Source: Acidobacteriaceae bacterium (GTDB lineage Bacteria; Acidobacteriota; Terriglobia; Terriglobales; Acidobacteriaceae). From it: a DNA stretch of 32,971 bases. The notes beneath the pieces are model-generated. The model was given only the letters and a program-made list of their open reading frames with translations, ran no database searches and was not told the origin of the DNA. How positions within the stretch are numbered: the stretch's first letter is position 1; every line of letters begins with the position of its first letter. Made by a program: the position numbers and the translations under genes. Positions 17,521 to 26,068 of the stretch are shown in pieces. Location of the stretch: positions 1 through 32,971 of the forward strand of contig JASHNS010000008.1 in the NCBI GenBank assembly GCA_030041515.1. The letters run 5' to 3'.

Positions 17521-18459
17521 TCAGCTCCGCTGCTCCTGCTCATGCAGCTCCGGAGCAGCCAGGATTCTCGGCAACTGCACGATCATCGTCGCCCCGCGTC
17601 CCTCGCCGGCGCTCTCCGCCGTCGCGTCGCCGCCATGCTGCCGCGCGATCGTGCGCACCAGATACAGTCCCAGCCCCGTTCCTTTCGTCCGCAGCACGCT
17701 GCGCACCGGCACGCGATAGAAGCGCCGGAAAATGCGCTTCAGATGAGCCGGCGGAATCCCGATGCCGCGATCGGCGACGCTCACCCGCACCCACGCGTCA
17801 TGCTCCACGGTCAGCGTCACCGTAATCTCCGGACCATTCGGCGAGTATTTCACCGCATTGTTCAGGATATTCAACAGTACGGTTTGCAATTCCTCAGGAT
17901 CGCCGCGCACGGTCATGGGCAGCCGCGTCTCCACGATCTCCAGCGCGATCGCCTTCTCGTCCAAATGAAGCCGGGCGCGAGTAGTGCGCACACATTCCTC
18001 CACGACAGACCGCATATCGACCGCGACCCGCACATGGGAGCGCGCGCGCTGGCCCACTTCGCCGGCCTTCAGCACCTGCTCCACGGTGCCCATCAGCCGC
18101 TCGCTGTCTTCCATCATGCGCGCGTAAAACTCGCTGCGCTGCGCGTCGTCCATCGGCCGCCGCTGCAGCGTCTCCAGATACAGCCGGATCGAGGCCACCG
18201 GCGTCTTCAGTTCATGCGTCACGGCGCTCAGGAAGGCGTCGTGCCGCTCGTTCCGCCGGACCTCGCGCACCAGAAAGATGGTATTCAGCACCAGGCCGGC
18301 AATCAGCAGGATAAAGAAGGGAATTCCCAGAGCCATGGGCAGCACACTGCGCCAGTTGAGCACGATCCAGCTCACGTTCAGCACCACGGCGACTCCGATC
18401 AGGAGCACGCCGAGCAGCGTGAACAGCACCATGTTCCGTCTTCGCCCGCTGATTCTCAT
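17521..18459 (-). CDS. Two-component sensor histidine kinase
   Basis: This 312-residue membrane kinase has two N-terminal helices (about 11-33 and 40-64) with almost no periplasmic loop, so it may sense within the membrane or at its face. The phospho-acceptor is H82 in SAVTHELKTP. The ATPase domain has the N-box ILNNAVKYSP (N200/N201), G1 DRGIGIP at 230-236 and G2 GTGLGL at 260-265. ATGs at 18468, 18459 and 18432 are all in frame. I favour 18459 because it keeps the basic GRRRN before the first helix, but the first codons lie inside a 48-bp repeat also found at 20923-20970, so the start is uncertain. The partner regulator follows after one base. A copper role is inferred from the neighbours. 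Confidence 0.88.
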   Translation of the reverse strand: MRISGRRRNMVLFTLLGVLLIGVAVVLNVSWIVLNWRSVLPMALGIPFFILLIAGLVLNTIFLVREVRRNERHDAFLSAVTHELKTPVASIRLYLETLQRRPMDDAQRSEFYARMMEDSERLMGTVEQVLKAGEVGQRARSHVRVAVDMRSVVEECVRTTRARLHLDEKAIALEIVETRLPMTVRGDPEELQTVLLNILNNAVKYSPNGPEITVTLTVEHDAWVRVSVADRGIGIPPAHLKRIFRRFYRVPVRSVLRTKGTGLGLYLVRTIARQHGGDATAESAGEGRGATMIVQLPRILAAPELHEQEQRS

Positions 18460-18493
18460 GCAAAGCAAAAGCGCCCGCTCGCGCAGGCGCTTC
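18446..18493 (-). repeat. 48-bp direct repeat, copy A
   Basis: These 48 bases are identical, base for base, to 20923-20970 and in the same orientation, 2.48 kb apart. On the minus strand the repeat opens with a hairpin and T-rich tail and ends in about 14 extra conserved bases that are not needed for termination. Copies A and B bracket the two-gene ABC-2 transporter. Copy A also covers the alternative first codons of the sensor kinase gene. Confidence 0.85.
18461..18492 (-). terminator. Intrinsic terminator after the ABC-2 permease gene
   Basis: On the minus strand AAGCGCC (18492-18486) pairs with GGCGCTT (18475-18469) around a GC-rich 10-base loop, followed by TTTTGCTTTG (18470-18461). It lies about 57 bases after the permease stop codon and immediately before the sensor kinase start. 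Confidence 0.75.
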
Positions 18494-18508
18494 TATTCTC
18501 TCAGGTGC

Positions 18509-18543
18509 CGAACCCTATACCGTAAACCGTGGCCCGTATCCCC
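18509..18543 (-). repeat. Heptad tandem repeat after the ABC-2 permease stop
   Basis: Five 7-base units in perfect register start six bases after the permease TAA on the coding (minus) strand. GGGGATA is the first, and CGGTTTA and CGGTATA the third and fourth. They share consensus and orientation with the elements at 1690, 20972 and 25151. The terminator hairpin of the 48-bp repeat follows 15 bases later. Confidence 0.7.
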
Positions 18544-18548
18544 TGCCT

Positions 18549-19853
18549 TTACGAGAATTCCCACCGGCGGGCGATGCGGCGGGCCGCCACAAACATTGCC
18601 AGGCCGATGGCGAGCAGCACCGAGACCTGCGGCCAGAGCGAGATCAGAGGCAGGTCGCGCCAGAAAACCTTTGTGAAGCCGTCGATGGCCCACGCGTTGA
18701 TGGTGAACAGCCCGGCCTTCTGCATCGCCGCCGGCATCATGAATCGTGGAAACATGCTGCCGCCCACCGCTGACATCACCAAAATCAGCAGGGTCGACAT
18801 GGCGCCGAGCTGGCCGCGCGTCCGGCACAGGCTGGCCAGCGGCATGCCAAACGCAGCCACGGCAAAGGCGGTACACAGGCCCATCACGATAAAGCCGGGA
18901 ATGTGGCCGAAAAATTCGAGATGGAAGAGCGCCCAACCCCATAGAAACATCACCACAAGTTGAACGAACGCCAGCATGGTGTTGAACGCCAGCTTGCCCG
19001 CCAGCAATTTGGTCATCGTGACGCGCGAGCTCAGCACCCGGTCCAGCGTGCCGCTCTCCGCTTCATCCAGCAGCGAGCCGGAGGAGCCGCTGGCGGTGAA
19101 CAGCAGGAACATCACTCCGATGGCCGCGGCATAGAAGGAGATCAGCGACTTGTTCTGATGCTCGCCCACCACTGCGCGCGTGTCGACCGCAATGATACCC
19201 CCGCTGCCGAAGCCGGAAGAGGATGACGCTTGCGCCTCCGGCTTATTTGCGCGATCCTTCTGGAGCTGCTCGAGATAGTTGAGGCTTTTTTGCCAGTTCT
19301 GCCGCTGCTCCGGCGTGAAGGTCCCCAGATACTTCTGCGTGTACTGCATGCCCTCAGCGGCCATCGATGCCGGCATGGCCATCATCGCCGCTTTCTGGAG
19401 CATTCCGTTGACGATTTGCGGCGCGATGGGATCGCTTTGGTCGCTGAGCAACTCGATCTTCGGCGCCTGCTGCTCATCCGGGCCAAAGGCCATAGGGTGC
19501 GCACCCCATCCGGCGGGAACGATGAGCGCGACTGGCGCATCGCCGCGCTTCACGGCCTCCTCGGCGGACCGGGCCGTGTAGTCGGGAGGCGCCGGCTGAT
19601 TGCGGCTCGCCTCCGGATGTGTGCTCACGAGCAGAGAGCCTTCCCGCTCCAGCGCGCGGATCAGCTCGCGCGAGGCGATGCTCTGATCCTGGTCCACCAC
19701 AATCAGGTGAACTTGCGGGATGGTATCGTGTTCGCCGCCGAAGACCATGGCGAAGATGGAGAAGAACGCGACAGGCAGGACGAAGGAGAGCGCCAACGCC
19801 GCCCGGTCGCGGCGCAGTCCAGTGATCGCGGTGCGAACGATGGCGGAGATCAA
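18549..19853 (-). CDS. ABC-2 type transporter permease
   Basis: This 434-residue integral membrane protein has one N-terminal helix (about 18-38), a large extracytoplasmic domain (about 40-235) and five helices in the C-terminal half (about 243-265, 295-315, 325-350, 358-380 and 402-425). This is the layout of ABC-2 exporters of the YhhJ/YbhR type. The conserved LLDEAESGTLDRVLSSRVT cytoplasmic segment before the third helix is characteristic. Its start overlaps the end of the ATPase gene by four bases, so the two form one exporter. The substrate is unknown; relatives move drugs, polysaccharides or sodium. The gene ends in the heptad repeat and hairpin described separately. Confidence 0.9.
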   Translation of the reverse strand: MISAIVRTAITGLRRDRAALALSFVLPVAFFSIFAMVFGGEHDTIPQVHLIVVDQDQSIASRELIRALEREGSLLVSTHPEASRNQPAPPDYTARSAEEAVKRGDAPVALIVPAGWGAHPMAFGPDEQQAPKIELLSDQSDPIAPQIVNGMLQKAAMMAMPASMAAEGMQYTQKYLGTFTPEQRQNWQKSLNYLEQLQKDRANKPEAQASSSSGFGSGGIIAVDTRAVVGEHQNKSLISFYAAAIGVMFLLFTASGSSGSLLDEAESGTLDRVLSSRVTMTKLLAGKLAFNTMLAFVQLVVMFLWGWALFHLEFFGHIPGFIVMGLCTAFAVAAFGMPLASLCRTRGQLGAMSTLLILVMSAVGGSMFPRFMMPAAMQKAGLFTINAWAIDGFTKVFWRDLPLISLWPQVSVLLAIGLAMFVAARRIARRWEFS

Positions 19854-20803
19854 TCTCGCAGCTCCCTTCCCGTCAGGTGCAGAAAGACGGATTCCAGGTT
19901 GGGCCGGCGCAGCGAAACGTCCGCCGGCTCAAATCCGGTCGCGGCGGCGCTGTCCAGCAGAGCGGCAATCTCCGCCGGCTGCTGGAGCGTGAAATGCGCG
20001 ACGCCGTCGTTCAGTGTTCCGCCACGAGCGGCCACCCACGCGGCCAGGCCCTCCGCCGGACCGCTGAAGCGCGCTACTACCTGCGTGCTGTTGCCGAAGG
20101 CGCTGCGCACCAACTCCTCATGCGCGCCCTCGGCAATGATCCGTCCGTGGTCGATGACCGCGATCCGGTTGCACAGCCGCTCGGCCTCTTCCATGTAATG
20201 CGTGGTGTAGAGGATTGAGGCGCCCTGCTCGCGCAGCGTCTCGATCATCTCGAAGATCCGGATGCGCGACTGCAGATCCACGCCCACCGTCGGCTCATCC
20301 ATCAGCACAACGCTGGGGTGGTGGATGATACCTGCCGCCATGTTCAGCCGCCGCTTCATGCCGCCGGAGAGTTGCTGCGTGGGCTCGCCCGCCCGGTCGG
20401 CCAGAGCCGCCCATTCCAGACACCAGGCCGCGTGATTGTCGAGTTCTTTTCCGGACAGGCCCTGGTATCGGCCGAAGGCCATCAGATTTTCCCGGCAGGT
20501 GAGCCGCGGGTAAATGGCCAGCTCCTGCGGCACCCAGCCGAGGGCCTTGCGAGCTGCGTGCGTTCCAGCATTCGCGCCGAAGATGCAGATGGATCCGGCA
20601 TTCGGCAGCACGCGCCCCACGATTCCACGGATCAGCGTGGTTTTTCCCGCGCCATTCGGACCCAGCAACCCCAGGCACTCCCCCGCGCGCAGAGATAGCG
20701 AAACGCCATTCACGGCCGCATGGGCGCCGAAGCGCTTAACAAATCCTTCCACCTCAACCGGCGGCGCACACACGGCAGCCGCGGCGGAAACAGCTGTTGC
20801 CAT
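19850..20803 (-). CDS. ABC transporter ATP-binding protein (ABC-2 partner)
   Basis: This 317-residue cytoplasmic ATPase has Walker A GPNGAGKTT at 48-56, the Q-loop PQE near 92-94, signature LSGGM at 145-149, Walker B VVLMDEP at 165-171 with a normal catalytic Glu, and the switch His H202 in TTHYMEEAE. The C-terminal 80 residues form the DrrA/CcmA-type extension. GGAGG (20808-20812) four bases before the ATG is a good ribosome site. It pairs with the permease gene it overlaps. The whole operon lies between two identical 48-bp repeats, which could allow its loss or movement by recombination. The substrate cannot be assigned. Confidence 0.92.
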   Translation of the reverse strand: MATAVSAAAAVCAPPVEVEGFVKRFGAHAAVNGVSLSLRAGECLGLLGPNGAGKTTLIRGIVGRVLPNAGSICIFGANAGTHAARKALGWVPQELAIYPRLTCRENLMAFGRYQGLSGKELDNHAAWCLEWAALADRAGEPTQQLSGGMKRRLNMAAGIIHHPSVVLMDEPTVGVDLQSRIRIFEMIETLREQGASILYTTHYMEEAERLCNRIAVIDHGRIIAEGAHEELVRSAFGNSTQVVARFSGPAEGLAAWVAARGGTLNDGVAHFTLQQPAEIAALLDSAAATGFEPADVSLRRPNLESVFLHLTGRELRD

Positions 20804-20922
20804 GGAGCCTCCGACGAAGCCCTGCTACCGGAACAACATTGCGTTCCCAGGAGAGATACGGAGAAGAAGTGGATTCCGTTCCCGGGGCCGAAATCGCCGC
20901 CACGGCGCCCGACACCAGGACT

Positions 20923-20970
20923 CCGCTGATTCTCATGCAAAGCAAAAGCGCCCGCTCGCGCAGGCGCTTC
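20923..20970 (-). repeat. 48-bp direct repeat, copy B
   Basis: Identical to 18446-18493. Here it lies downstream of the desaturase gene and does not enter a credible coding region, although a short frame beginning MLCMRISG (the same residues as the sensor kinase N-terminus) can be read through it. It follows the desaturase heptads by one base. Confidence 0.85.
20938..20969 (-). terminator. Intrinsic terminator after the desaturase gene
   Basis: Same hairpin as copy A: on the minus strand AAGCGCC (20969-20963) pairs with GGCGCTT (20952-20946), followed by TTTTGCTTTG (20947-20938). It sits about 43 bases after the desaturase stop. Confidence 0.75.
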
Positions 20971-20971
20971 C

Positions 20972-21006
20972 ATTGTCCTATACCCTACACCCTATCCCCT
21001 ATACGC
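20972..21006 (-). repeat. Heptad tandem repeat after the desaturase stop (G-quadruplex potential)
   Basis: Five units are in register on the coding (minus) strand, three of them nearly identical: GGGGATA, GGGTGTA and GGGTATA. Together with a GGG just after the stop codon, the coding strand has four runs of at least three G, with loops of 9, 3 and 4 bases, which could fold as a G-quadruplex in the transcript. This is the cleanest of the four heptad loci. Confidence 0.72.
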
Positions 21007-21011
21007 TGCCC

Positions 21012-21959
<948 letters not shown>

Positions 21960-25150: not shown

Positions 25151-25171
25151 TCAACCGTATCCCGTAAACCC
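25151..25171 (-). repeat. Heptad tandem repeat after the SDR stop
   Basis: Three clear units in register on the SDR coding strand (GGGTTTA, CGGGATA, CGGTTGA), beginning seven bases after the TAA. A fourth degenerate unit may follow. Same consensus and gene-relative orientation as at 1690, 18509 and 20972, but without the 48-bp hairpin unit. Confidence 0.62.
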
Positions 25172-25177
25172 TGGCGT

Positions 25178-26068
25178 TTAGTACGGCGTCCGTCCCCCCG
25201 TCGCGCCATAAATCTCGGCCGTCACATACGTCGCGTCCTCCGAGGCCAGAAAGACGAAGAGCGGCGCCAGTTCCGCCGGCTGCGCGGCCCGCTCAAACAC
25301 CGTGTTCTTCCCAAATTCCTTCACCTTGTCCTTCGGCATCGTCGACGGGATCAGCGGCGTCCACACCGGCCCCGGCGCCACGCCATTCACGCGAATCTGC
25401 TTCTTCCCCAGCGCCTTCGCCATCAGCTTAGTCAGGCTCACGAGCGCGGCTTTGCTCGGCGCGTAAGCGACAAGGTTCGGGCTCGGCTCAAACGACTGGA
25501 TCGAGCACGTATTGATGATGCATCCGCCCTTCGGCAGCTCCTCCGCCGCGGCCTGGGATAGAAAAAACGTCCCAAAGACATTTGTGCGGAACGTCCGCTC
25601 GAACTCATCCTCCGGCACGTCGGCAATGTCGTCGTAGGTGCGCTGGAAGCCGGCGTTGTTTACCACGATGTCCAGCTTGCCCAGCCGTTTCGTCGCCGTC
25701 TCCACCAGCTTCCGGCAATAGTTCTTTTTGCCGATGTCGCCGGGAACGAGCACTGCCTTGCGGCCGGCCTGCTCCACCCAGCGCGCCGTCTCCCCTGCAT
25801 CGTCTTTTTCTTCCGGCAGGAAGCTCAGCACCAGATCCGCGCCCTCGCGGGCAAAGGCAATCGCCACGGCGCGGCCAATGCCGCTGTCGGCTCCGGTAAT
25901 GATGGCGGCTTTGTCGCGCAGTTTGCCGTTGCCGCTGTAGCTGTCCTCGCCGTGATCCGGTTGGGGACCCATCTTCGCGGTCTTGCCTGGGGGTGGCTGC
26001 TTTTGCGATGAATACGGCGGCTTCGGCTCGGCTTCCTTCGGATGCGGGTGCGCTGCGTGTCTCGGCAT
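25178..26068 (-). CDS. Short-chain dehydrogenase/reductase, YghA/general-stress-39-like
   Basis: This 296-residue NAD(P)-dependent oxidoreductase has a Rossmann domain with TGADSGIG at 58-65, NNAG at 137-140, and the catalytic S189, Y202 and K206 (YAPSK). The Pro-rich N-terminal 45 residues, with the KMGPQPDHGEDSY segment, are diagnostic of the YghA/GSP39 branch, whose members are typically about 290-300 residues. I chose ATG 26068 because the length and N-terminus then match the family; an in-frame GTG at 26122 adds 18 Gly/Arg-rich residues. The substrate is not known; relatives are stress-induced. It diverges from the kinase gene over 158 bases. Confidence 0.92.
   Translation of the reverse strand: MPRHAAHPHPKEAEPKPPYSSQKQPPPGKTAKMGPQPDHGEDSYSGNGKLRDKAAIITGADSGIGRAVAIAFAREGADLVLSFLPEEKDDAGETARWVEQAGRKAVLVPGDIGKKNYCRKLVETATKRLGKLDIVVNNAGFQRTYDDIADVPEDEFERTFRTNVFGTFFLSQAAAEELPKGGCIINTCSIQSFEPSPNLVAYAPSKAALVSLTKLMAKALGKKQIRVNGVAPGPVWTPLIPSTMPKDKVKEFGKNTVFERAAQPAELAPLFVFLASEDATYVTAEIYGATGGRTPY

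Follow-up and report, generated by a model that had tools for sequence, protein, structure and literature searches.

The stretch of DNA analysed here (contig JASHNS010000008.1 of assembly GCA_030041515.1, positions 1 to 32,971; hereafter the window, 32,971 nt in length) comes from a soil acidobacterium of the family Acidobacteriaceae with a 4.77-Mb genome. The L6 ribosomal protein of this genome is 91% identical to that of the nearest Acidobacteriaceae metagenome-assembled genomes (MAGs) and 82-84% identical to that of Silvibacterium/Acidipila. Three genes of the window are followed by short arrays of imperfect 7-nt units (heptads), recognised from the sequence, the pattern SGGKNTA and, for the first of them, the gene context. 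They encode an ABC-2 type permease (18549..19853, minus strand, Pfam PF12698), a fatty acid desaturase (21012..21863, minus, Pfam PF00487) and a short-chain dehydrogenase (SDR; 25178..25972, minus, Pfam PF13561). The corresponding arrays are located at 18509..18543, at 20979..21006, where Tandem Repeats Finder also gives a period of 7, and at 25151..25171, where the array is shorter (CAG, TAC, TAC, then GAG). They begin 5, 5 and 6 nt past the stop codon, respectively, and all lie on the minus, that is, the coding strand. The permease and desaturase arrays share the form CAG-N4-YAS-N4-YAS-N4-YAS-N4-YAG with an onset 3 nt past the stop; the former reads CAG-N4-TAC-N4-CAC-N4-TAC-N4-TAG (18545 down to 18515) and the latter CAG-N4-TAG-N4-TAG-N4-TAG-N4-TAG (21008 down to 20978), each 31 nt long on the minus strand. 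From the comparisons presented below, it is firmly concluded that the G-rich SGGKNTA unit is a local dialect of a more general, sequence-agnostic element built of heptads, which occurs in Acidobacteriaceae and patchily across the phylum. The feature kept in this element looks like its length and place, not its sequence.

A three-unit SGGKNTA pattern with up to two mismatches gave six overlapping matches in the window, at the three places described above, and none in 100 dinucleotide shuffles. A first-pass annotation had proposed four arrays after stop codons, of which those behind the permease, desaturase and SDR genes are real, whereas the fourth, behind dacB (1690-1717), comprises one two-unit match with one mismatch and no three-unit match. 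Two-unit matches with up to two mismatches occur 18 times in the window, against a mean of 11.0 in shuffled sequences (18 was reached in 5 of 100), which places the dacB array at the level of chance. Therefore, the proposal that the array genes lie on both strands fails for the real arrays of the window, all of which are on the minus strand, but it holds genome-wide, where 25 exact matches were found on the forward and 19 on the reverse strand. These 44 exact three-unit matches compare with only 2 (2/0) for the reversed pattern used as a control, and when one mismatch was allowed the numbers were 130 and 17.

The placement of arrays relative to genes was determined in 41 stretches of the same genome (826 kb, 699 genes predicted by a home-made gene caller). 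At up to two mismatches these stretches contained 51 arrays, against 18 for the control, and the array densities are biased because 25 of the 40 fetched stretches were chosen from contigs already known to hold SGGKNTA matches. Among 44 arrays with at most one mismatch, 20 had their 5' end within 12 nt past a stop codon in the sense orientation, where random placement gave a null of 6.5 and no more than 12 in any of 300 draws. In five of these the TAG stop was overlapped by the array. Only three arrays were reversed, with the 3' end within 12 nt past a stop (null 6.3). The enrichment just past stops on the coding strand, set as a test by the first-pass annotation, is thus clearly visible, and an oriented repeated element at the 3' ends of functionally unrelated genes is real. 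The idea that the element belongs to 3' ends is correct for its main location, past stops, but too narrow, since some arrays are antisense before start codons. Eight of the 44 arrays ran antisense and had their 5' end no more than 12 nt before a start codon, a number that exceeds the null mean of 3.9 but stays inside the null range, which extends to 9. Three arrays had the opposite placement, and these start-side counts are weakened by the rough start sites of the gene caller. The S10-spc-alpha operon (contig C105) is particularly rich, with eleven arrays (up to two mismatches) in 20 kb. The autocorrelation at lag 7 past stops was weak, 0.277 versus 0.268-0.271 at neighbouring lags (15 stretches of this genome, three large contigs).

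Exact three-unit SGGKNTA matches were present in 31 of 396 genomes of the phylum, and their distribution was very uneven. One family of the phylum set, f28 (loci L102-L106; genomes G288, G083, G034, G358 and G138), has an array type of its own, CGGTGTA/CGGTTTA together with GGGTCTA. The period was also followed independently of any motif, by scanning the DNA for similarity to itself at each lag from 4 to 12, with a lag-7 threshold of 11, lowered to 8 within the genus. The sample consisted of the L6 region of relatives (the best 80 of 280 candidates, mostly Acidobacteriaceae), many of which are MAGs, and arrays were present in isolates too (loci L141, L144, L157 of Acidobacteria bacterium AB60 and L183 of Edaphobacter aggregans DSM 19364). 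The intergenic DNA around L6 in these 80 relatives contained 145 lag-7 arrays and at most 7 at any other lag, and that of the stretches from the window genome contained 35, with at most 3 at other lags. In coding DNA, lags 6, 9 and 12 dominated instead in the same scan, because of codons. Lag-7 arrays were found in 99 of 1424 junction gaps, where lags 5, 6, 8, 9 and 10 gave no more than 6 each. Stretches from another 40 genomes, of which 37 belong to other families, yielded 99 lag-7 arrays versus at most 8 at other lags; their occurrence was patchy, with arrays in 10 of the 37 non-family genomes and in two of the three family members. The unit sequence itself, which had been taken as the conserved feature, is not conserved: relatives carry CAGTGRT, CAGGGRT, TAGCTNN, CAGAGCW and other units at matching junctions, and the units outside the family include ATTGCGG, CATTCAC, AATGAGT and others without YAG. 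The placement rule is the same in relatives. Among 133 of their 145 arrays (the 12 with an ambiguous YAG strand were excluded), 53 had an onset within 12 nt past a stop in the sense orientation (null 9.3, largest 17) and three were reversed, while 25 were antisense within 20 nt before a start (null 14.4, largest 25).

Matching gaps of related genomes are occupied by different heptads. At the gap between the genes for ribosomal proteins L6 and L18, ten loci carry ten consensus heptads, all of them different. The heptads read at this gap include the GGGTATA type of the window genome, GGGTGTA (locus L135), TAGGGAT (L146) and CAGGGAN (L142), which were among those listed for ten junctions of the first 28 loci, as well as CAGTGAT (L157) and CAGGTTG (L170). 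Matching coordinates point to nine of the relatives as members of the same genus (G396, G398 and G400 to G406). In this genus, 60 of 182 gaps of the S10 operon contained a lag-7 array at the threshold of 8, other lags reached at most 3, and the heptad varied by species. Unlike heptads at one place within a genus indicate that the sequence is hardly the point of the element, and that period, length, polarity and place are. For the same reason, the dispersed insertion of one sequence at 3' ends, offered earlier as an explanation, does not fit, as the heptad switches between species at one gap. At the desaturase gap, GGGKNTA in the window corresponds to CAGTAGT in G401, whose desaturase is 93% identical (its lag-7 score of 7.5 falls short of the general threshold of 11), and no heptads were seen in G396 (94% identical) or in eight other same-genus orthologues read. 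At the permease gap, SGGKNTA in the window (lag-7 score 7) corresponds to a TAGCCGG-type array in G405 (18) and G399 (7.5), with no heptads in G396, G398, G400 and G402; apart from G396, the orthology of these permeases is uncertain, because they share 55-58% identity and are not encoded on the same contig as the desaturase. No lag-7 array was present at the SDR gap in the two orthologues read.

The two window gaps have a further, non-heptad feature. A terminator-like hairpin read from the sequence, with a GC stem and then a T-rich stretch, lies behind the permease array (18469..18492, minus), and a second copy lies behind the desaturase array (20946..20969, minus), where it is recognisable in the nearest orthologues as well. 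Both copies are held in a 55-nt direct repeat of 96% identity (18446-18500 and 20923-20977), which flanks the ABC transporter genes (18549-20803). The genome of G401, 88% complete, has no match to the permease, and its desaturase directly precedes sequence like that behind the window permease. This arrangement, along with the flanking repeat, raises the possibility that the ABC transporter may have been inserted with duplication of the 55-nt segment.

The arrays have a characteristic anatomy. The usual arm (one array segment) in the family consists of four units followed by YAG or YAC, 31 nt in all. YAG was present in at least 75% of the units of 126 of the 145 relatives' arrays, the next trinucleotide class reaching this level in 92. 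The distribution of arm length peaked at five YAS, both in the window genome (24 of 43 arrays) and in relatives (61 of 126). In stop-side arrays, the first YAS was placed 2 or 3 nt past the stop in 24 of 52 cases in relatives and 8 of 20 in the window genome, and it was the TAG stop itself in 4 of 52 and 6 of 20, respectively. Of the 43 arrays of the window genome, 30 had C as the first base of the first YAS, and inner YAS started with T in 134 of 145 instances. The most variable positions of the unit were 6 and 7, and the core positions were constant. Moreover, 50 of 115 co-directional array-bearing gaps contained two array segments, of which 35 pairs were convergent, 2 divergent, 2 parallel and 11 ambiguous; in a few of these gaps (e.g. 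L135, L200) the second segment was not a complementary arm. The arms of one gap resembled each other beyond the dialect of their genome, with a likeness of 0.722 versus a largest value of 0.709 in 500 permutations (31 pairs, 7 genomes), and the order of units in the two arms was uncoupled. Identity in the stem register was even below the mean of unit-shuffled arms, 299 of 300 shuffles reaching it (38 pairs), but an energy test for avoidance of perfect arm pairing gave p = 0.22 (39 gaps), and uncoupled order alone is therefore claimed. A mirrored unit order, seen at the L6-L18 gap of the window genome, was considered as a general rule and rejected (55 of 300 shuffles).

Neighbouring units within an arm were no more alike than shuffled ones (1.24 vs 1.21 in relatives, 1.44 vs 1.42 in the window genome). 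Together with the uncoupled order of arms, this makes the arms look like neither inverted copies of each other nor products of plain serial duplication. The lack of neighbour similarity also speaks against simple slippage, that is, the view that the arrays are ordinary simple-sequence repeats that grow in 7-nt steps, are tolerated beside genes and are removed elsewhere. Such a view finds support in the over-representation of heptamers among bacterial repeats, for which polymerase slippage has been proposed (cited in the consulted parts of PMC4692102 and PMC4679880), and in some long uniform arrays, such as that of locus L076 at 8739, with 13 units. It is nonetheless improbable, since arm length peaks at four units plus YAS with no falling-off, sense and antisense placement at stops is asymmetric, and the arms of one gap have a common core.

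The folding of the intergenic RNA was compared with that of shuffled sequences, and the median z was -5.1 for two-array gaps (n = 46), -2.6 for one-array gaps (n = 50) and -0.8 for gaps with no array (n = 60). These predictions suggest that convergent arms can fold into hairpins and the intergenic mRNA into a long stem. At the L6-L18 gap of the window genome, the predicted stem consists mostly of 5-bp helices between 2x2 internal loops, because positions 6 and 7 of the unit vary most; more continuous stems were predicted in other gaps, e.g. in one of L170. Intrinsic termination, one of the roles first suggested, is unlikely as a general function, as arrays are situated at internal junctions of the ribosomal operon and a TTTT tract within 12 nt past the 3' array was found in only 7 of the 50 two-array gaps. 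In searches of five sources with Rfam at the gathering score, no match lay over any array. The sole match was Acido-Lenti-1 (RF01687), at 1242-1288 of locus L249 in the S10-operon stretch of G084, off the arrays.

A selected RNA element, in which the arrays would be kept either as stems or as sites for a multi-site RNA-binding protein reading YAG every 7 nt, would account for the pairing and perhaps for the place. The constant core beside variable positions 6 and 7, the matched arms of one gap, the preferred arm size, the much better folding of two-array gaps than of shuffles and the dependence of placement on the gene strand are all in line with it. HutP recognises UAG motifs that are separated by 4-nt spacers, and TRAP binds repeated NAG. 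The YAG sites of the arrays are likewise regularly spaced, but mostly five in number and often predicted to be base-paired. Against this explanation, congeners differ in the heptad at one gap, single arms are common, a stem alone needs no 7-nt units, and HutP (PF09021) was over the cut-off in none of 24 genomes, with weak matches (E up to 1) in three. It is therefore rated as rather unlikely. A G-quadruplex (G4) role, as for the Xanthomonas and Nostoc repeats, had also been put forward and fits the sequences of the window genome to some extent, where 16 of 44 arrays conform to a three-layer and 37 of 44 to a looser two-layer pattern. In relatives, only 19 and 30 of 133 arrays, respectively, match these patterns despite the common place, period and length, and as a general explanation of the arrays a G4 role is very unlikely. 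The possibility that arrays supply back-up stop codons in all three frames is even more remote: such stops are present in 26 of 44 arrays of the window genome, but in only 42 of 133 arrays of relatives and 19 of the 53 right past stops; CAG dialects disfavour it, and convergent second arms are left unexplained.

The explanation that we prefer, at a probability of roughly 0.42, is that a process acting on DNA, with a ruler of 7 nt, writes the arms de novo, and that they afterwards persist as passive intercistronic hairpins; in its origin part, the de novo formation of arms, our confidence is moderate. The process would extend 3' ends directed into the gap from the edges of the genes, and the source of an arm would be neither a copy of another locus nor growth by slippage. 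Many gaps contain an additional arm on the side of the following start codon that faces the opposite way, so that the two arms converge and the intergenic mRNA can fold into a long stem. Inserts would survive at gene edges, and the surviving stem would act as a passive intercistronic RNA hairpin, contributing to insulation or to protection from 3' exonucleases. We infer this process, and any function of its product in RNA, from units that look separately drawn from one degenerate core, preferred length, inward polarity and switches between sister species, since de novo writing would explain most of these features. A telomerase-like form of it, in which both 3' ends at an intergenic break or gap would be extended inward by about four units from one degenerate template and then joined, is of low probability, although it would jointly account for the fixed ruler with changing sequence, the convergence, the matched core with uncoupled order and the arm length, and also for the CAG-type first unit of the window genome and the reuse of gaps by sister species. 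One common unit of this genome, GGGTTTA, equals the plant-type telomere repeat TTTAGGG, which is probably a coincidence.

Several observations weigh against de novo writing. An enzyme for writing heptads is neither known nor was one found in this analysis, and the explanation needs the further assumption that the ends are trimmed back to the gene edges. Units often lack YAG in genomes of other families, many arrays are single, and antisense arrays before starts exceed chance only slightly, both in the window genome (8, null 3.9) and in relatives (25, null 14.4). The detection threshold misses short arrays and partly shapes the length peak. Units at separation 4 differ more than shuffled ones in relatives (1.85, n = 13, range to 1.77), which is a hint of some serial growth. 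Finally, the close relative G396 shares remnants of arrays with the window genome at the ribosomal gaps L3-L4 and L23-L2, and inheritance with loss therefore happens too.

Mobility of the arrays was also considered. Repetitive extragenic palindromic (REP) elements and bacterial interspersed mosaic elements (BIME), which are associated with RAYT transposases, form intergenic hairpins after genes, and the arrays could be REP-like as well, mobilised by a Y1/RAYT transposase acting on hairpins. The mean number of Y1_Tnp (PF01797) matches was 4.75 in 12 array genomes versus 1.54 in 28 genomes without an array in the fetched stretch (p = 0.049), and the window genome has six. The link is weak given genome size (partial rank correlation 0.29, p = 0.07), and there are exceptions: G261 has 11 arrays and no Y1_Tnp, whereas G386 has 11 Y1_Tnp and no array. 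Moreover, a BLAST search of one array region against its own genome revealed no common element sequence beyond the heptads. The arrays thus differ from REP/BIME in having no common element sequence and a weak link to Y1_Tnp counts, and this explanation is very unlikely.

De novo writing, if true, would mean a new kind of bacterial DNA synthesis; selection, if true, would point to a so far undescribed RNA element between the cistrons of essential operons. The arrays raise a testable question, namely what sets a length of seven bases and takes gene edges as its starting point, and the ribosomal operons in sister species form a dataset for gains, losses and switches.

The first-pass annotation had pointed to the heptanucleotide repeats of cyanobacteria, and this is the right comparison: the short tandemly repeated repetitive (STRR) sequences of Calothrix are tandem heptanucleotides, as are the arrays described here. 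In the open-licence PMC literature, no report of heptanucleotide or intergenic heptamer repeats in acidobacteria was found. The closest known cases are the G-rich heptamers GGGNATC and GGGGA(C/T)T of Xanthomonas and Nostoc, which have been interpreted as G4 (Rehm et al., 2015, PMC4692102). As far as the consulted parts of that paper go, the arrays presented here are similar to them in the 7-nt unit, the mixture of variants within an array, the preference for four units and the convergent inverted pairs. The placement is also shared (within 50 bp past stops in the sense orientation, or before starts in the antisense one), although the start side is weak here. The same parts describe one sequence per organism, with 83% of the Xcc heptamer repeats kept in Xac, whereas the acidobacterial units are many, mostly not G4-like and switching between congeners, and neither SGGKNTA nor the units of relatives are GGGNATC or GGGGA(C/T)T. 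A second case is the TAACTGA direct repeat of marine Beggiatoaceae, some Cyanobacteria and Bacteroidetes (MacGregor, 2015, PMC4679880). According to the parts of this source consulted, it likewise has a length of 7 nt and lies at gene edges, some of them close to genes for ribosomal proteins, and the CAGTNNN core of locus L157 is present in TCAGTTA, the reverse complement of this repeat. It differs in being one unit sequence, located mostly upstream of starts; a translational regulator and horizontal transfer were invoked to explain it, and related heptamers were described as rare there. TAACTGA is absent from the consensus units found here, CAGTGAT and similar ones being near but not equal. 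In the portions considered, both papers defined heptamers by sequence and explained them by it, as G4, a protein site or a result of horizontal transfer. Heptamers at gene edges are thus already known from Xanthomonas, Nostoc and Beggiatoaceae, and the sequence-agnostic rule and the reuse of slots seem to be new. This suggests that the known heptamer systems may be dialects of one phenomenon.

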